Shown here: positions 128 through 5,734 of the stretch, piece after piece
How the letters are laid out: the number at the start of each line of letters is the position of its first letter
Position numbering within the stretch: the stretch's first letter is position 1
Source: PVC group bacterium
Lineage (GTDB): Bacteria; Verrucomicrobiota; Kiritimatiellia; UBA8416
NCBI GenBank assembly: GCA_003567805.1
Contig: PWYP01000081.1
Location: forward strand, 1-5,754
Reading direction: 5' to 3'
Length of the DNA stretch: 5,754 nt
Notes under the pieces: model-generated
The model's input: only the letters and a program-made list of their open reading frames with translations
Told to the model about the DNA's origin: nothing
Database searches by the model: none
Program-made: the position numbers and the translations under genes

Positions 128-172
128 CCTGTCCGCCGTCATGTCCCGCGTAGTTCGCAGAACGAAGCGGGA
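128..172. repeat. REP-like hairpin, copy R1
   Basis: The palindromic core is 144-172. The outer stem is TCCCGC (144-149) with GCGGGA (167-172). An internal loop places GTA (150-152) opposite GAA (164-166). The inner stem is GTTC (153-156) with GAAC (160-163), and the loop is GCA. The 5' arm is preceded by a diverged copy of itself with a 12-nt period: 128-139 and 140-151 match at 9 of 12 positions, both containing TGTCC. The same architecture with different stem sequences recurs at 3333-3374 and 3426-3458. It lies 27 nt after the stop of the leftmost gene. There is no U-tract, so it is not a classical terminator. A half-like piece with CGCGAAGCGCGAAG follows at about 176-189. Confidence 0.7.
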
Positions 173-216
173 GCCCGCGAAGCGCGAAGAAGGTTCCCCC
201 ACCTCATCCCTGTCTC

Positions 217-439
217 CACTTTCAGCTTTTCCCCACTGCCCATCAGCCTACGCGCCACCCCATCTTCCCCTTCTGCGTTTTCTGCGTGTTCTGCGGTTCC
301 CCCAGCAGAGCCTAACAGCCTTCGTGTCTTGGCGCCTTCGTGGTTAAATCCGCCCTCCGCAGTGCCCTGCGTAGTCCCATACCCCATAAGGAGTCGGGAC
401 GAAGCACGGGACCTCCGACCTCCGACTTCCGACCTCCGC
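217..439. repeat. Composite microrepeat region, copy A
   Basis: This is most of the 325-nt spacer between the first gene and the phosphatase. In order it contains: TTTCAGCTTTTCC at about 220-232; three 9-nt units TTCTGCGTT, TTCTGCGTG and TTCTGCGG at 271-296; CAGCAGAGCC at 303-312; a 27-nt element at 319-345 built from CCTTCGTGTCTTGG and GCCTTCGTGGTT; GGAGTCGGGACGAAGCAC at 390-407; and a heptamer array ending at 439. The same modules recur in the same order and strand in copy B (2401-2640) and partly in copy C. The + strand is pyrimidine-rich. Open frames here are repeat translations, not genes. Confidence 0.75.
412..439. repeat. Heptamer tandem repeat (four units)
   Basis: Four consecutive 7-nt units occur at 412-418 CCTCCGA, 419-425 CCTCCGA, 426-432 CTTCCGA and 433-439 CCTCCGC. 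The array stops 3 nt before the stop codon (443-445) of the minus-strand phosphatase, so the repeat reaches the very end of that gene. Copy B carries only about one unit (near 2629-2635), so unit number varies between locations. Confidence 0.75.
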
Positions 440-442
440 CCC

Positions 443-2221
443 CTACCGTTTCACAGGCTGCACGATGTGATCGAGAAGATTACCATTACGCGTCATAACT
501 TTGATATCCCGCTGATGCTCGGATAGCGTAACGAGAAGAAAATGCCGGATCGCGGACGAGCGCGCAAGGTACCACTCCTCCTCCGGGGTCCGCGGCACGC
601 GCTCCCCCACACCCCAGGCACCATCGCCAATATAGATGATGCCATCCGCGGCCTCTTCGCCATTGCGCAACGGCACAGTACGTTTATAGGTGTGATCATG
701 ATTTTCAAAAGCCACCTGAATTCCATACCGTTCCATTAATGGCACCCAATGCTCACGCACCCGCACCGAAACGCGTCCACTGAAAGAACGATGCGAAGGA
801 TAAGCTGGCACATGATACACAGGCAACACATGCAGAATATCAGTCCGTGCCCGCAAAACCTCTTCAAACCACTCCGTCTGTGGTCCGGCTACCGGTGTCG
901 AGTGATCCGTATCAAGCAAGATGATGCTTAAATAATCCGACACATCCAGCACGCCATACCCCGGATGCCCCGGAAAGGCAAACATGCTGTAGTAGAAAGG
1001 CGCAATTTCATTGCGAAAAGCATCGGTTAACACAACAGGATCTTCCTCCTCAGCATGACGGAAAAAGTAGCCTTGTTTGACCTCGTGATTCCCGATCCCC
1101 ATCAACACCGGAACGACCCTTCCCGACTCATCCACCAGCGTGTTTTTCATTGCGTCAAAAAATTCATCCCACCGGTACCACCGGCGCACAAGCCCATCCG
1201 CATAGGCGAGATCGCCACCCCACACAATCGCATCCAGATCATAGCGCATCGCGATGCGATTCACTTCCTCCATCCACGACTGCCGGTGTCGCACATCGCC
1301 CCCGATCGCCAGGCGCACGGGACGATCCAGAGTCGCCGGCATGGTACGGAACCGATAAACGGAACTGGACGCATGCGCGGAAAAACGAAACGTGTACTCC
1401 GCATCCGGCTGCAGATCCGTTAGCTCTACCGTATGAACCCAACGTGGAATCCCGGGGATCGGTTGGCTTTGTACGGTATCTTTTTCGCCAAGCTTCTGCC
1501 CATCGGCATCACCATAAATCACCGTTCCAGCCTCTACCCCCTCCGTATGCCATTGGATGGTCATCGTTGTCGTCGGGTCCTGCTGCCAGGTAAGATAAAA
1601 TGCAAGCGGCTCAACCACAGGCTCAATCAGCGACACCCGCAAACCCAGACATATATCCGAACTGCTTGTGTTGTTATTATGCAACGATACGGCCAGAATA
1701 TTTGTTCCCTGCACCAAAGGTGGATTATCGATGAGAAGAAGATCCTGGGTTTCCCAAGGATTCGTAAAGCCCGTGGCTGCCGTCTCAAACGTAACGGGAC
1801 CTTCCGGCATTAATGCGCTACGCGCAATTTCCTCTCCATTCAGATAATAGACAGCCGCATCATCCAGTATTTGCTCAATCTTCAGTTGTTGCCCCTCGGC
1901 ATCGCCCGTATAAACAAATGAGGTACGCAGATAATACGTGAGCAGATTCGGTTCCATCTCGGTTTGCAAACCCGGCTCCGGCCACCGTCCGGTTCGACCC
2001 CCTGTGTCGTATCCCAAAAGCCCCGGACCTTGCGACCAGGCATCATCCGGATAATCCGGCATGCGCCAAGCATCCCCCAGATCCTCATTACCGTCGTGAT
2101 ACCGCCATACACTATCAAAATCGACTAAGATCGTTTCCGGTGTGAGCGCATAACCGGTTCCCGCCAGACAAAAACACATCACGCCCAATAACAACTGCAT
2201 CGCCAACTTATTCATACCCAT
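443..2221 (-). CDS. Exported purple-acid-phosphatase-like metallophosphoesterase
   Basis: This protein of 592 residues probably hydrolyses phosphate esters outside the cytoplasm with a two-metal centre. Residues 1-25 form a type I signal peptide (basic MGMNK, hydrophobic core, AGTGYA before LTPE). About 30-200 resemble a galactose-binding-like sandwich domain (ILDDAAVYYLNGEEIARS, then VQGTNILAVSLHN). About 204-293 are the fibronectin-like N-terminal domain of purple acid phosphatases (LTWQQDPTTTMTIQWHT). The metallophosphoesterase domain follows: GGDVR (Asp309), GGDLAY (Asp337, Tyr340), GNHE (Asn378, His379), VYH (His470) and NHDH (His508, His510), where the usual Gly of GHxH is Asn. All expected ligands appear present. 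The frame extends upstream to 2296, but ATG 2221-2219 is chosen because GGAGG lies 6 nt upstream and the signal peptide then starts at residue 1. It is convergent with the leftmost gene and flanked on both sides by composite repeats in direct orientation. The substrate is unknown. Confidence 0.88.
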   Translation of the reverse strand: MGMNKLAMQLLLGVMCFCLAGTGYALTPETILVDFDSVWRYHDGNEDLGDAWRMPDYPDDAWSQGPGLLGYDTGGRTGRWPEPGLQTEMEPNLLTYYLRTSFVYTGDAEGQQLKIEQILDDAAVYYLNGEEIARSALMPEGPVTFETAATGFTNPWETQDLLLIDNPPLVQGTNILAVSLHNNNTSSSDICLGLRVSLIEPVVEPLAFYLTWQQDPTTTMTIQWHTEGVEAGTVIYGDADGQKLGEKDTVQSQPIPGIPRWVHTVELTDLQPDAEYTFRFSAHASSSVYRFRTMPATLDRPVRLAIGGDVRHRQSWMEEVNRIAMRYDLDAIVWGGDLAYADGLVRRWYRWDEFFDAMKNTLVDESGRVVPVLMGIGNHEVKQGYFFRHAEEEDPVVLTDAFRNEIAPFYYSMFAFPGHPGYGVLDVSDYLSIILLDTDHSTPVAGPQTEWFEEVLRARTDILHVLPVYHVPAYPSHRSFSGRVSVRVREHWVPLMERYGIQVAFENHDHTYKRTVPLRNGEEAADGIIYIGDGAWGVGERVPRTPEEEWYLARSSAIRHFLLVTLSEHQRDIKVMTRNGNLLDHIVQPVKR

Positions 2222-2227
2222 TTTCAC

Positions 2228-2232
2228 CCTCC
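2228..2232 (-). promoter_or_regulatory. Shine-Dalgarno site of the phosphatase
   Basis: On the minus strand GGAGG sits 6 nt before ATG 2221-2219, inside GGGAGGGTGAAA. This strong site decides the start over the upstream in-frame ATG at 2296 and the ATG at 2215. No convincing -35/-10 pair was found upstream of it. Confidence 0.75.
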
Positions 2233-2358
2233 CGGTCTGATTTACTAACATTTCCCTAACACCATTACACATATTGCGCACCTCTACAACCCCCAAACCC
2301 CACGAAACTGATTCTCTCTCCCATTTTCCCCAACGCCCTCACCCCACTCCCCACCAGC

Positions 2359-2388
2359 AATCATCCTGCCCCCAAATCATCCTGCCCC
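2359..2388. repeat. Short direct duplication, 16-nt period
   Basis: AATCATCCTGCCCC occurs at 2359-2372 and again at 2375-2388. A related copy, ATCATCCTGTCCCC, occurs at about 3495-3508 in copy C. It is one of several short building blocks shared between the spacers. Confidence 0.65.
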
Positions 2389-2592
2389 GCAGAGCCTATC
2401 AGCAATTTCAGCATTTCTGCTTTTCAGCTTTTCAGCTTTTCCCCATCCCCCTTCTGCGTTTTCTGCGTGTTCTGCGGTTCCCCTCCCCATTTCAGCATTT
2501 CAGCATTTCAGCTTTTCCCGACATAAGCCCACCAGCCTTCGTGTCTTGGAGCCTTCGTGGTTCAAACCAGCAAAGCCCATGATCCCGTACCC

Positions 2593-2616
2593 TCCCGACC
2601 TCGCAGGGAGTCGGGA
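2593..2616. repeat. Small inverted repeat in copy B
   Basis: TCCCGAC (2593-2599) and GTCGGGA (2610-2616) are perfect 7-bp arms around a 10-nt loop. The 3' arm belongs to the shared GGAGTCGGGACGAAGCAC module. Copy A keeps only a weaker TCCC/GGGA pairing. There is no U-tract, so a terminator role is not supported. Confidence 0.45.
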
Positions 2617-2663
2617 CGAAGCACTGGACCTCCGCCCTCTAGCCTACTCTCGCGTTTCTACAT

Positions 2664-2692
2664 TTGATTTTAGCCGCCTGCTCTGCTAGTTT
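2664..2692 (+). promoter_or_regulatory. Weak candidate promoter of the TA operon
   Basis: TTGATT (2664-2669) could serve as -35 and TAGTTT (2687-2692) as -10 with a 17-nt gap, leaving a leader of about 13 nt before the antitoxin ATG. The -10 matches the consensus at only three positions, so this is a placement suggestion. Confidence 0.25.
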
Positions 2693-2711
2693 TGTGTAGC
2701 TGGAGGTAAAC

Positions 2712-2936
2712 ATGACAGTAGCACAAGCCATTCAGAAACATATAGCATCACTGCCCGAAAACACGTTGCAGGAAGTCCTTGATTTTGTCGAATTTCTCGA
2801 AATGAAACGCGCGGCAACCGCTACCCCCCCCCACGATCAAAGCTGGTCAAACTTTTCTCTCGCCTCTGCCATGCACGGATTGGAATCAGAAGAAAGCCCG
2901 TACACTCTCGCCGATATCCGCGAGGAAAGACCGTGA
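2712..2936 (+). CDS. DUF2281-type antitoxin of a type II TA pair
   Basis: This 74-residue protein probably neutralises the PemK/MazF-like toxin encoded immediately downstream. Residues about 3-33 (QAIQKHIASLPENTLQEVLD, then FVEFLEMKR) match the short helical DUF2281 segment found in many VapB/MazE-like antitoxins. Residues 45-74 form a separate tail (WSNFSLASAMHGLESEESPY, then TLADIREERP) expected to contact the toxin. GGAGG at 2702-2706 lies 5 nt before ATG. The stop overlaps the toxin start by 4 nt (GTGA), indicating translational coupling. Such pairs usually repress their own promoter, but no clear operator is visible here. Oddity: a run of nine C (2824-2832) encodes the Thr-Pro-Pro linker between the two parts. 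Confidence 0.8.
   Translation: MTVAQAIQKHIASLPENTLQEVLDFVEFLEMKRAATATPPHDQSWSNFSLASAMHGLESEESPYTLADIREERP
2824..2832 (+). repeat. Nine-C homopolymer inside the antitoxin gene
   Basis: The run lies in codons 38-41 (Thr-Pro-Pro-His), at the hinge between the N-terminal helical part and the C-terminal tail. Loss of one C would shift the frame for the whole tail and carry translation past the toxin start to a TGA near 2948. Runs of this length can slip during replication. Confidence 0.9.
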
Positions 2937-3280
2937 TTACGGAAGGTGACATTGTCTTGTTTGAGTTCCCGCAGACAGACAAGTCCAGCGGCAAGCTACG
3001 GCCTGCGCTTGTACTTCGAAAATGTCCGGGACAATATGATGACTGGCTCATCTGCATGATATCCTCACAGCTTCGCCAAGCGAACACGGATCTCGATGTT
3101 ACCATACGCTATAATGACCCGGAATTTGAGACCTCGGGACTTAAAATCGAAAGTGTTATTCGCGCGTCAAGGTTGGCCGTAATATCCGCCGACGTTCTCA
3201 AGGGCTCGATTGGCAAATTATCGGCAACACGAATCAAAACGATCCAGCAGAGCATAGCAAACTGGATAGCAGACCAATAA
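2933..3280 (+). CDS. PemK/MazF-family toxin (endoribonuclease)
   Basis: The product has 115 residues, normal for the family. MazF/PemK toxins cleave mRNA at short sequences and slow growth when their antitoxin is lost. Family hallmarks appear in order: GDIVLFEFPQTDKSSGKLRP at 5-24 with the conserved Arg23-Pro24, ALVL at 25-28, CMISSQ at 41-46 (the usual Thr of MITSQ is Ser44), SGLKIESVIRASRL in the middle, and the closing GSIGKLSATRI segment. The start is GTG 2933, with AGGA (2923-2926) 6 nt upstream inside the antitoxin gene. The start overlaps the antitoxin stop, so the two are co-translated. No truncation or missing key position is seen. The exact cleavage sequence cannot be predicted. Confidence 0.88.
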   Translation: MITEGDIVLFEFPQTDKSSGKLRPALVLRKCPGQYDDWLICMISSQLRQANTDLDVTIRYNDPEFETSGLKIESVIRASRLAVISADVLKGSIGKLSATRIKTIQQSIANWIADQ

Positions 3281-3332
3281 CCCGACCACCCCCCTTCTGT
3301 CCGCCCCATCCCCCCACTCTCTGTGTCTTCTG

Positions 3333-3374
3333 CTTGTCCTCCATCTTGTCCTGCATAGCTTTAGCGAAGGAGGA
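3333..3374. repeat. REP-like hairpin, copy R2
   Basis: The 5' arm is duplicated with a 12-nt period: CTTGTCCTCCAT (3333-3344) and CTTGTCCTGCAT (3345-3356). The rest is AGCTTTAGC and GAAGGAGGA to 3374. The outer stem is TCCTCC (3337-3342) or TCCTGC (3349-3354) against GGAGGA (3369-3374); the distal arm pairs perfectly, the proximal one with a mismatch. The internal loop is ATA opposite GAA, and the inner stem is GCT/AGC. It interrupts the microrepeat of copy C. Confidence 0.68.
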
Positions 3375-3425
3375 GGTTCTCTGTGGTAAATAACCAGCAG
3401 AGCCCACCAGCCTTCGTGTCTTTGG

Positions 3426-3458
3426 CTTGTCCTCCATAGCTCGAAGAGCGAAGGGGGA
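3426..3458. repeat. REP-like hairpin, copy R3
   Basis: After CTTG, the outer stem is TCCTCC (3430-3435) with GGGGGA (3453-3458; one G-T pair). The internal loop is ATA (3436-3438) opposite GAA (3450-3452). The inner stem is GCTC (3439-3442) with GAGC (3446-3449), and the loop is GAA. It splits the CCTTCGTGTCTTTGG / GCCTTCGTGGTT element, which is uninterrupted in copies A and B. Confidence 0.72.
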
Positions 3459-3555
3459 TGCCTTCGTGGTTCAAACCAGCAGAGCCCACCAGCCATCATC
3501 CTGTCCCCCATTTTCCTAAAAACAACATTGGCATCAACCAATATACGATACCACT

Positions 3556-3596
3556 AACTCCATAAATACCATAATTATGGAGTTGACGACTCCATA
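3556..3596. promoter_or_regulatory. Three-half-site operator before the ATPase
   Basis: AACTCCATAA (3556-3565) and TTATGGAGTT (3575-3584) form a perfect 10-bp inverted repeat with a 9-nt spacer. A third half-site, ACTCCATA (3589-3596), follows in direct orientation. The second arm overlaps the -35 box and the third lies between -35 and -10, as expected of a repressor-binding site. The binding protein is unknown; autoregulation through the winged-helix-like part of the ATPase is one possibility. Confidence 0.6.
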
Positions 3597-3617: not shown

Positions 3618-4763
3618 ATGATAAAAAGAAATATCGTATTCCCCGAGGGTAATTTCTTTCTTTTTGGTCCGCGGGGCAGTGGCAAATCCTACTGGCTGCA
3701 CAATGCGTATGCAGACGATGTGGTCTATATCGACCTGCTGGAATCGCGGGTATGCAACCGGCTGTCAGCAGATCCGCAACGACTCACGGAGTACATACCC
3801 GGAAGATATGCCGGATCGGTCATCATTGATGAAATACAGAAGATACCGGCGCTGCTTGATGAGGTACATCGCCTGATCGAGCAGAGCAGGAATCTGCGTT
3901 TCATTCTGACGGGCTCCAGTCCCAGAAAGCTGAGGCGGACCTCGTCGAATCTTCTGGGAGGGCGTGCTTCAACATGTCACTTCCATCCTCTGACGGCCAT
4001 GGAACTGGGGGGTGCCTTTGACCTTGTGAAAGCGCTGCGATACGGGCTGCTACCGACCCTTTATGATGCCGAGAAAAATATAGCCCCGGACAACTACCTA
4101 GCCGGCTATATTGAGGCCTATCTCAGGGAAGAGATTCTGCAGGAGGGGCTAACCCGGAATGTTGCCGCCTTCAACCGTTTTCTCGAAGCGGCGAGTTTTT
4201 CCCAGGGCGAAGTGCTAAATGTCACACAGGTGGCACGAGAATGTTCGGTACACAGGAAGGTCGTGGAAAGCTATTTCCAGATACTGGAAGACCTCCTGAT
4301 CGCGCACCGTATACCTGTGTTTACGCGAAAAGCCAAACGCAGGCTCATTCAGCATGCCAAGTTTTATTTTTTTGATACTGGCGTGTATCGGGCGATCAGA
4401 CCAAAAGGTCCCCTCGACACCCCGGAGTTAATCGACGGTGCTTCACTGGAAACCTTGGTGCTCCAAAACTTGCAGGCACACATTAATAACCACAAACGCA
4501 AATATACGATACACTATTGGCGGACAACTGCCGGCAAGGAAGTCGACTTCATCCTGTATGGTGACGATGGCCTCGTCGCCATTGAGGTTAAGCGTAGCCA
4601 AACGGTGACCCCAAAGGATGTATCCGGTCTACGGACATTCATGGAAGATTACCCAGCGACAAAAGCCGTGCTGTTGTATGGCGGGGACAAACACCTGGAC
4701 ATCAATGGAATTCGCGTAGTGCCAATCCTGCATGCGTTAACGCACCTGGACAAACTACTCTAG
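3618..4763 (+). CDS. AAA ATPase with DUF4143 C-terminal domain
   Basis: This 381-residue protein has the usual length and domain order of the AAA_14-DUF4143 family, widespread stand-alone bacterial and archaeal ATPases of unclear role. The N-terminal ATPase has Walker A GPRGSGKS (17-24), Walker B SVIIDE (67-72), the ILTGSSPRKLRR sensor segment (96-107) and LLGGRA (112-117). A middle part (about 195-230, NVTQVARECSVHRKVVESYF) looks like a winged helix. The C-terminal part has EVDFIL (308-313) and IEVKRS (322-327), giving an Asp310 and Glu323-X-Lys325 arrangement like the PD-(D/E)XK nuclease fold. Nuclease activity is not established for the family. It stands alone, with its own promoter and a three-half-site operator, and apparently no Shine-Dalgarno site. 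The frame is intact. The stop is followed by 127 nt of non-coding DNA without an obvious terminator. Confidence 0.88.
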   Translation: MIKRNIVFPEGNFFLFGPRGSGKSYWLHNAYADDVVYIDLLESRVCNRLSADPQRLTEYIPGRYAGSVIIDEIQKIPALLDEVHRLIEQSRNLRFILTGSSPRKLRRTSSNLLGGRASTCHFHPLTAMELGGAFDLVKALRYGLLPTLYDAEKNIAPDNYLAGYIEAYLREEILQEGLTRNVAAFNRFLEAASFSQGEVLNVTQVARECSVHRKVVESYFQILEDLLIAHRIPVFTRKAKRRLIQHAKFYFFDTGVYRAIRPKGPLDTPELIDGASLETLVLQNLQAHINNHKRKYTIHYWRTTAGKEVDFILYGDDGLVAIEVKRSQTVTPKDVSGLRTFMEDYPATKAVLLYGGDKHLDINGIRVVPILHALTHLDKLL

Positions 4764-4890: not shown

Positions 4891-5220
4891 ATGAGCGAGC
4901 CAAACAAGCAAATCATCATTTTCAAGACCGATGATGGAAAAATATCGGTCAATGCGCAGTTTGATGCGGAAACGGCCTGGCTATCCCTTGATCAAATGGC
5001 CGTGCTGTTTGGCCGGGACAAATCGACCATCTCCCGCCACATAAAAAATGTATTTGCAGAAGGTGAATTGCCGCAAGAATCAGTTGTTGCAAAATTTGCA
5101 ACAACTGCGGCAGACGGCAAAACCTATCAGGTAGATTACTACAATCTTGATGTAATTATCTCGGTGGGTTACCGGGTAAAATCTCTACGCGGCACGCAGT
5201 TCCGGCAGTGGGCAGCATGA
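4891..5220 (+). pseudogene. RhuM-family protein, C-terminally truncated
   Basis: The 109 residues match the N-terminal third of the RhuM family (about 330 residues), named for a Salmonella pathogenicity-island gene of unknown biochemical role and common near restriction systems and on mobile DNA. A helix-turn-helix-like segment lies at 31-60 (LSLDQMAVLFGRDKSTISRH). It is followed by the conserved VVAKFATTAADGKTYQVDYY and NLDVIISVGYRVKSLRGTQF. The protein stops at FRQWAA, where the family normally continues FRxWAT and some 200 residues more. The stop (TGA 5218-5220) sits 22 nt before the repeat at the GxxExxY start. ATG 4891 is chosen because GAGAGG (4879-4884) lies 6 nt upstream; the frame is open back to GTG 4786 but that part is copy D repeat. 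The short form may still be expressed as a small DNA-binding protein. Confidence 0.8.
5081..5107. repeat. Perfect 13-bp inverted repeat within the RhuM gene
   Basis: CAGTTGTTGCAAA (5081-5093) and TTTGCAACAACTG (5095-5107) are exact reverse complements around a single A (5094). The palindrome covers codons 64-73, encoding the conserved VVAKFATT peptide. A perfect palindrome this long is not expected by chance in a window of this size. Confidence 0.9.
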
Positions 5221-5242
5221 ATGGAAGATAATGGGGGGAGTC

Positions 5243-5272
5243 AACCACGAATGAACACGAATGGACACGAAT
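5243..5272 (+). repeat. CACGAATGAA-type repeat, left copy
   Basis: A 30-nt element begins AACCACGAATG and is built from 10-nt units (CACGAATGAA, CACGAATGGA, CACGAAT). It spans the GxxExxY start codon (5251) and encodes residues 1-7 of that protein (MNTNGHE), so the repeat is partly coding. It is 28/30 identical to the direct copy at 5636-5665 and 26/30 to the inverted copy at 5690-5719. Confidence 0.85.
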
Positions 5273-5634
5273 TGATTTATAAGGAGGAGGTTTATCAGAT
5301 CGTTGGGTGTGCTATGGAGATATTGAATGCGCTGGGGCATGGGTTTTTGGAAAAGCCGTATGAAAATGCACTGGTGGTGGAGTTCGGTCTTCGCGGGATC
5401 TCCTGCTCGCAACAGCCTTCATTTGATCTGATGTACAAAGGGGTAAAGGTTGGTTTCTATATACCTGATCTGATTGTGATGGATAAAATAGTGGTGGATA
5501 CCAAAACCATTGAGCGCATTACCGATCATGAGCGGGGACAGATGTTGAATTATTTGAAAACAACCGGTCTGCGGGTCGGTGTGATCCTGAATTTCAAGCA
5601 TGCGAAACTCGAATGGGAACGGATTGTTTTGTAA
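5251..5634 (+). CDS. GxxExxY-family protein (PD-(D/E)XK-like)
   Basis: This 127-residue protein has normal family length. The defining motif is GFLEKPY (Gly31, Glu34, Tyr37), inside GHGFLEKPYENAL. The nuclease-like core is IPDLIV (Asp73) and VVDTKT (Asp83-Thr84-Lys85, where most members have Glu-X-Lys), followed by HERGQMLNYL (93-102) and GVILNF (110-115). The fold belongs to the PD-(D/E)XK_3 group; the biological role is unknown. The frame opens at ATG 5221, directly after the RhuM stop and in the same frame, but ATG 5251 is preferred because GGGGGG and GAG (5232-5240) give a ribosome site about 10 nt upstream and family members commonly begin like MNTNGHE. Repeats of one family lie at its start, just after its stop, and inverted 56 nt after its stop, so the gene looks like a cassette placed beside the broken RhuM gene. 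Confidence 0.87.
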   Translation: MNTNGHELIYKEEVYQIVGCAMEILNALGHGFLEKPYENALVVEFGLRGISCSQQPSFDLMYKGVKVGFYIPDLIVMDKIVVDTKTIERITDHERGQMLNYLKTTGLRVGVILNFKHAKLEWERIVL

Positions 5635-5635
5635 G

Positions 5636-5665
5636 AACCACGAATGAACACAAATGGACACAAAT
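5636..5665 (+). repeat. CACGAATGAA-type repeat, middle copy
   Basis: This is a direct 30-nt copy of the left element with two changes (G to A in the second and third units). It begins 1 nt after the GxxExxY stop codon. With the left copy it brackets the gene in direct orientation; with the right copy it can form an imperfect hairpin. Confidence 0.85.
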
Positions 5666-5689
5666 CCGGGGGAGAGAAGGCTGAAACTA

Positions 5690-5719
5690 ATTAGTGTGTA
5701 TTCGTGTGCATTCGTGGTT
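5690..5719 (-). repeat. CACGAATGAA-type repeat, right inverted copy
   Basis: Read on the minus strand it begins AACCACGAATG and matches the left copy at 26 of 30 positions. Left and right copies therefore behave as imperfect terminal inverted repeats of a 477-nt unit (5243-5719). Pairing with the middle copy gives a long imperfect stem with a 24-nt loop, which could stop or protect transcripts, though no U-tract follows. Confidence 0.8.
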
Positions 5720-5734
5720 TAAAAAAGGATTTGA

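Follow-up and report, generated by a model that had tools for sequence, protein, structure and literature searches.

A family of REP-like hairpin units inserted exactly into repeats and genes in bacteria of many phyla

We analyzed a stretch of 5,754 nucleotides (called the window here; positions 1 to 5,754 of contig PWYP01000081.1, assembly GCA_003567805.1) from a PVC group bacterium assigned to the Kiritimatiellia, in which an original prediction, made from the letters alone, had described three hairpins of one architecture resembling repetitive extragenic palindromes (REPs). These hairpins belong to a family of short units found in bacteria of many phyla. The units insert exactly, with neither duplication nor loss of the target. 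They enter repeats and other units as well as genes, and the two gene insertions that were checked are in frame.

Hairpin units of the window and their family

A unit of the family consists of a 4-nt 5' foot, a 6-bp outer stem, a 3-by-3 internal loop (RWA opposite GWA) and a small inner hairpin, and it carries no coding content of its own. Among 232 units, 136 were 30 nt and 53 were 33 nt long, and the feet included CCTG (74 units), CTTG (52), TTTA (16), TTCA (6) and GTAG (4). The commonest outer arm was TCCTCC, while the commonest flanking bases were GG before the unit (66/232) and TG after it (64/232). The proposed likeness to REPs holds for this architecture, a palindrome of 20 to 40 nt with a bulged stem and many copies per genome.

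Three full units lie on the forward strand of the window. The 33-nt unit at 140-172 (foot CATG) pairs perfectly, the only one of the three to do so, with outer stem TCCCGC/GCGGGA, internal loop GTA/GAA and inner stem GTTC/GAAC around GCA. The 30-nt unit at 3345-3374 (foot CTTG) has outer arms TCCTGC/GGAGGA with one G.G mismatch, internal loop ATA/GAA and inner stem GCT/AGC around TT, and the 33-nt unit at 3426-3458 (foot CTTG) has outer arms TCCTCC/GGGGGA with one T.G wobble, internal loop ATA/GAA and inner stem GCTC/GAGC around GAA. A covariance model trained on 32 copies, the three window units among them, matched these units at 41.1, 40.9 and 44.6 bits, respectively (E 5e-11 to 5.6e-10). 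When folded as DNA, unit 140-172 scored better than 200 of 200 shuffles (z -3.54), the fold of unit 3426-3458 was weak (z -1.25, with 22 of 200 shuffles equal or better) and that of unit 3345-3374 did not rise above its shuffles (z 0.29, 119 of 200 equal or better).

Two of these units are abutted on the same strand by 12-nt half units made of foot, 5' arm and two loop bases, namely CCTG, TCCGCC and GT at 128-139 next to unit 140-172, and CTTG, TCCTCC and AT at 3333-3344 next to unit 3345-3374. In the larger sample, a half unit stood directly 5' of a full unit in 3 of 239 units versus 6 of 4,575 control positions. The original prediction was thus right that three hairpins of one architecture are present, all being matched by the model, but exact pairing holds for unit 140-172 only. 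The ranges it gave, 128-172 and 3333-3374, each contain a full unit but also take in a half unit, and its pairing TCCTCC/GGAGGA is absent as stated: TCCTCC was borrowed from the half unit at 3333-3344.

A possible fourth copy, degenerate and with a long loop, lies at 361-412 on the forward strand (17.8 bits, E 0.0015), and repeat D9 at 2598-2639 is related to it. Unit 140-172 stands just downstream of the stop codon of an open reading frame ending at 117, and a search of the window against Rfam families gave no match at the gathering threshold. The window units are residents of intergenic repeat DNA. The intergenic DNA at 200-445, 2300-2660 and 3290-3510 is full of short-period repeats, of the CCTTCGTGTCTTGG, TTCTGCGTTTTCTGCG and TTTCAGCA types, and at least one unit is inserted into them.

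Exact insertion into repeats, hairpins and genes

The repeat that hosts unit 3426-3458 (family D3) is also present in the window as an empty copy, at 2526-2568 on the forward strand, and as a third copy at 309-351. The flanks of the unit (3401-3425 and 3459-3477), compared with the empty copy by eye, matched it in 42 of 44 columns. Among 239 units, 21 adjoined 7-nt periodic arrays, and the flanks of 16 of these were in phase (6 or 7 of 7 positions). When the unit was cut out, a different hairpin was restored at the junction for 4 of 232 units, versus 1 of 4,308 control cuts.

Two protein genes hold a unit in frame. In an alanyl-tRNA synthetase (AlaRS) of Patescibacteria type (L046), the unit adds the 10 residues LVLRSSSEGG between R and E, and none of the 119 relatives in the list (the 120 best of 8,000 scored) has this insert. 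In DnaE of locus L035, a linker of 17 residues is exactly 10 longer than the 7-residue linker of P0122 to P0126; the linker varies among other relatives. Units of the two main lengths, 30 and 33 nt, keep the reading frame. A screen of 202 listed units, minus those from 32 Lentisphaeria loci, found an open frame through 167 units, 30 of them flanked on each side by 60 or more open codons, and among these AlaRS and DnaE are the verified cases.

The DnaE relative P0121 seems to carry a further, nested insertion. PurL (L032) is ambiguous as another insertion case, the structure alignment having no clear insert and relatives sharing or varying the loop. The DnaE and PurL loops hold other odd peptides (e.g., SHPERSEG) in the relatives P0127, P0128, P0141, P0248 and P0263. 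These peptides may derive from other short repeats, and such loops are possibly common landing sites.

When the cut edges were shifted, the right edge of the unit was sharp and the left edge blurred, because the scanner tolerates differences in loop length. Evidence for the left edge comes from the array phase, AlaRS, DnaE and the window repeat. A 7-nt duplication would be compatible with the array phase taken alone, but the AlaRS case rules such a duplication out.

Covariation of the stems

The three window copies show two-sided changes in 2 pairs only, one outer and one inner, and since three copies alone prove little, the evidence for covariation must come from other genomes. Our first search pattern fixed the stem, so pairing was tested with anchors that left the outer arms free. 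In the Acidobacteriota genome G003, 50 core matches in 20 stretches had a mean of 4.66 Watson-Crick pairs out of 6 in the outer stem, compared with an average of 3.86 and a maximum of 4.26 in 2,000 shuffles of the partners. Anchoring on foot, internal loop and inner stem gave 143 sites from 148 sources, of which 128 paired at 5 or 6 of 6 positions, while the reversed-sequence control gave 5 sites and no pairing. Of the 45 sites whose arm differs from TCCTCC, 30 likewise paired at 5 or 6 of 6, versus no more than 20 in 2,000 shuffles.

An alignment of 32 copies, biased in that copies were picked for pairing, showed two-sided changes in 9 of 10 pairs and a covariation score of 0.455, versus 0.160 when shuffled and at most 0.118 when slid. 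The number of pair types in these copies was less striking, 17 versus 13.8 in shuffles, with 21 of 500 shuffles reaching 17. The covariation is genuine, because the outer arms pair even at sites chosen without regard to pairing, and the compensatory change around a conserved internal loop that had been claimed for the window is borne out across other genomes. The original prediction had named two refuting outcomes, few genomic copies and no significant covariation in a larger alignment; copies are many in other genomes, and the covariation is significant.

Spread of the family

The first pattern, which covers a single stem variant with its outer stem fixed, matched 7 stretches of viral contigs and at least 120 stretches of genome contigs, with taxon names taken from record titles. 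The unit loci picked fall in 68 distinct genomes, so the family is present in at least that number. Among the matches listed, we counted from the titles about 14 phylum-level groups: Patescibacteria (many), Verrucomicrobia, Lentisphaerae, Kiritimatiellae, Planctomycetes, Acidobacteriota, Delta- and Alphaproteobacteria, Bacteroidetes, Sumerlaeota, Armatimonadetes, Elusimicrobia, FCPU426 and Nitrospira. The host records are mostly metagenome-assembled, and contamination may explain some of these assignments; the titles of two records, Aequorivita (L050) and Poritiphilus (L125), name strains.

A core pattern nearly free of the outer stem gave 1 to 182 matches per genome, versus 0 to 13 in reversed sequence, in 30 genomes that had been selected for holding the element. 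Distribution among relatives is patchy: around the Kiritimatiellota genome G026, 32 of 58 genomes had a match, many of them near the control level, and 10 had at least 8. Units have recently expanded in two metagenome-assembled Acidobacteriota genomes (G003 and G011). In the single contig of the Kazan genome (699,981 bases), whose sequence was not used to train the model, the scanner found 31 units, one of them AT rich and probably due to chance, versus none in reversed sequence, and the covariance model, whose E values are rough, found 42 units at E ≤0.01 and 58 at E up to 1.

In two Lentisphaeria genomes (L014, L016, L019, L020, L024 and others), the unit lies within a longer conserved repeat, often at contig ends, and occupies two positions and orientations in it (27 and 6 copies examined). 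A 41-kb IMG/VR viral contig (L002 and L005) holds 13 units in the parts covered, several of them at gene junctions.

Search for a linked transposase

The original prediction had likened the hairpins to REPs mobilized by Y1-type REP-associated transposases (RAYT, or TnpA-REP), had seen no such gene in the window and had called for a search for one flanked by matching hairpins. We searched with the Y1_Tnp profile (PF01797) at an E value of 0.001 and examined 150 Y1 loci, a subset of all matches; none of them had units on both sides. Y1_Tnp matches were present in 57 of 68 unit-bearing genomes (26/30 and 31/38 in the two samples); among the 58 genomes around G026, 45 had a match.

Single units were occasionally found near Y1 genes. 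The scanner, which gave 201 matches in unit loci as a positive control, gave 8 matches in the first 120 Y1 loci (416 kb), 5 of them of the unit kind, versus 3 in reversed sequence; the matches in L190, L200 and L247 were set aside by eye as chance, and the other 30 Y1 loci gave no match. Over all 150 loci (508 kb), the covariance model found 8 units at E 0.01 and never more than one per locus. Three loci (L189, L221 and L233) had one unit within about 300 bp of the Y1 gene. A bracketed RAYT is therefore unsupported, and an unlinked Y1 enzyme is possible.

How the units may move

We favor, with a probability of roughly 0.6, the reading that the family is a REP-like mobile unit moved in trans by an unlinked HUH/Y1-type single-strand DNA transesterase. 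The unit would move as a folded single strand, recognition would be through the foot and the internal loop, and the enzyme would cut and join the unit, acting from an unlinked gene or from a phage or another cell. According to the sections of PMC6006769 drawn on here, IS200/IS605 ends and REPs are recognized by a foot together with a bulged hairpin, and most unit-bearing genomes have Y1 genes.

Several observations weigh against this reading. None of the 150 Y1 loci carried units on both sides, and 11 of the 68 unit-bearing genomes had no Y1 match at E 0.001, among them the 0.7-Mb Kazan genome with its 31 to 42 units. Nor was there a Y1 match in G005 (61 core matches), G006 (49), G022 and G070 (15). 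Unit and Y1 counts showed a weak correlation across 58 genomes (rho 0.32, p 0.015) and no detectable one across 30 (rho 0.20, p 0.28). HUH elements are expected to favor the lagging strand, but on the Kazan contig such a bias did not reach significance (20 versus 10, p 0.10). In addition, feet vary among units, 5 of the 21 array-adjacent units were out of phase, no mobilizing enzyme was identified in this analysis, and movement was not observed.

A bolder reading, which we entertain only tentatively, takes the family for a third REP-like superfamily, told apart by its foot, which would move among the phylum-level groups counted above, including ultra-small Patescibacteria and a viral contig, enters essential genes in frame and would have a mobilizer neither linked nor of the Y1 type.

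Classical REPs of a RAYT system, whose dedicated Y1 gene would be bracketed by hairpins and would have been missed through loss, assembly gaps or the choice of loci, are an unlikely explanation. The architecture does resemble that of bulged REPs (PMC6006769, in the same sections), four Kazan units have GTAG feet, Y1 genes accompany units in most genomes, sometimes at close range, and the counts correlate weakly in one sample, but feet are mostly other than GTAG, and the unbracketed Y1 loci and the Y1-free genomes, including the one-contig Kazan genome, speak against a dedicated gene.

The units might instead spread with no dedicated enzyme, by template switching, microhomology repair or gene conversion, and pass between species by DNA uptake or phages. 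Their presence in genomes lacking a Y1 match, the half units beside full units and the units within arrays and other hairpins would suit such a process. We nevertheless find it improbable, since exact ends with no target duplication or loss across unrelated hosts, together with a conserved foot and internal loop, point to specific recognition.

That the hairpin is a host site kept for its use and not mobile (a terminator, an mRNA end stabilizer or a protein-binding site) seems very unlikely, although stems covary, unit 140-172 lies just after a stop codon, units sit at gene junctions of the viral contig and such roles are known for REPs (PMC3733652, likewise drawn on in part). In-frame insertions in AlaRS and DnaE genes, insertions into junk arrays and other units, the patchy distribution among relatives and the lack of Rfam matches in the window are at odds with it; later secondary use of units by the host is possible. 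Chance inverted repeats of GC-rich, repetitive intergenic DNA would explain why units 3345-3374 and 3426-3458 fold no better or only slightly better than shuffles, but can be dismissed given the reversed controls (0 versus 31 units in Kazan, no pairing versus 128 of 143 anchored sites, and 0 to 13 versus 1 to 182 core matches per genome).

Other features of the window

A frame of the RhuM family (region 4891-5720) matches family positions 1 to 48 of 252 only and ends at 5220, directly followed by a PDDEXK_3 gene (5221-5634), which we take to be of the GxxExxY type. This gene is framed by inverted ACGAATG-type repeats of 30 to 36 nt at 5243-5278 and 5684-5719, with a direct copy at 5636-5665, and gene and repeats may have entered the RhuM gene together as a cassette. 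At 2712-3280, a DUF2281 protein stands beside a PemK/MazF-like protein, probably a toxin-antitoxin pair. A palindrome, AACTCCATAAATA / TAATTATGGAGTT, lies at 3556-3584 just upstream of an AAA_14/DUF4143 ATPase gene (3618-4763) and is possibly its operator; this ATPase gene, searched against plasmids, gave no match. The purple acid phosphatase of the window was closest, among 34 genomes searched, to that of G094 (51% identity over residues 232 to 610), a genome among the relatives of G026, which makes a host on the Planctomycetes-Verrucomicrobia side likely.

Comparison with known REP-like systems

The searched literature gave no prior description of this family, although figures or supplements of PMC3733652 and PMC6006769 may show one. 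The portions of these papers used here define GTAG and CGTC REPs, the CGTC kind having no transposase, and report REPs inside genes, including dnaE and tRNA synthetase genes (PMC3733652); they also describe bulged long REPs, GT[AG]G feet, a class 3 with CnGA feet and in-frame REPs within transposase genes (PMC6006769). The comparisons below are limited to these portions.

Like GTAG REPs of the REP/RAYT system, the units are short hairpins with a 4-nt 5' foot and an internal bulge, occur in many copies, have stem variants that stay paired and lie in frame within genes (PMC3733652, PMC6006769). Unlike them, they have feet that are mostly CCTG, CTTG or TTTA, were found without a bracketed Y1 gene and occur as one sequence across about 14 phylum-level groups. 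We rejected GTAG membership on foot and anatomy, a GTAG (or GTGG) foot not being characteristic of the family; the four GTAG feet among 232 units, all from the Kazan scan, may hint at kinship with GTAG REPs.

CGTC REPs, including Rickettsia RPE-4 and RPE-6, are REP-like repeats with no dedicated transposase; for the units here, none of the 150 Y1 loci examined was bracketed. They share with the family insertions in genes such as dnaE, but have a CGTC (or TGTC, CCTC) foot, an 8- to 9-bp stem nearly always starting with A and T, a 4- to 5-nt loop and a CCA-like tail (PMC3733652). The 6-bp outer stem, the RWA/GWA loop and other feet set our units apart by description, and membership was rejected, CGTC not being among the 25 commonest feet listed for the 232 units. 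The structures of class 3 TnpA-Y1 are likewise atypical hairpins of high copy number in Acidobacteria and Planctomycetes, but theirs have a CnGA foot and an association with class 3 Y1 genes (PMC6006769). Neither was found in the window family, none of its 25 commonest feet being CnGA. The ends of IS200/IS605 elements also combine a foot with a subterminal hairpin (PMC6006769), whereas a unit of our family is one whole hairpin with no gene and no second end. In-frame insertion into conserved protein genes, as in Rickettsia-type palindromic elements, is found here in AlaRS and DnaE. Elements of the IS200/IS605 family are not known to duplicate their target, a trait in which the units resemble them.

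In-frame insertion of REPs is thus already known, and what is different here is the missing transposase link, the foot, the internal loop and the phylum range. The family accounts for some of the inserts of 10 to 11 residues in predicted Patescibacteria proteins, as in AlaRS and DnaE, and such inserts can mislead annotation and structure prediction. With it, a REP-like element with definable ends is at hand in many little-studied phyla, and the mobility of REPs that lack their own transposase becomes a directly testable question.

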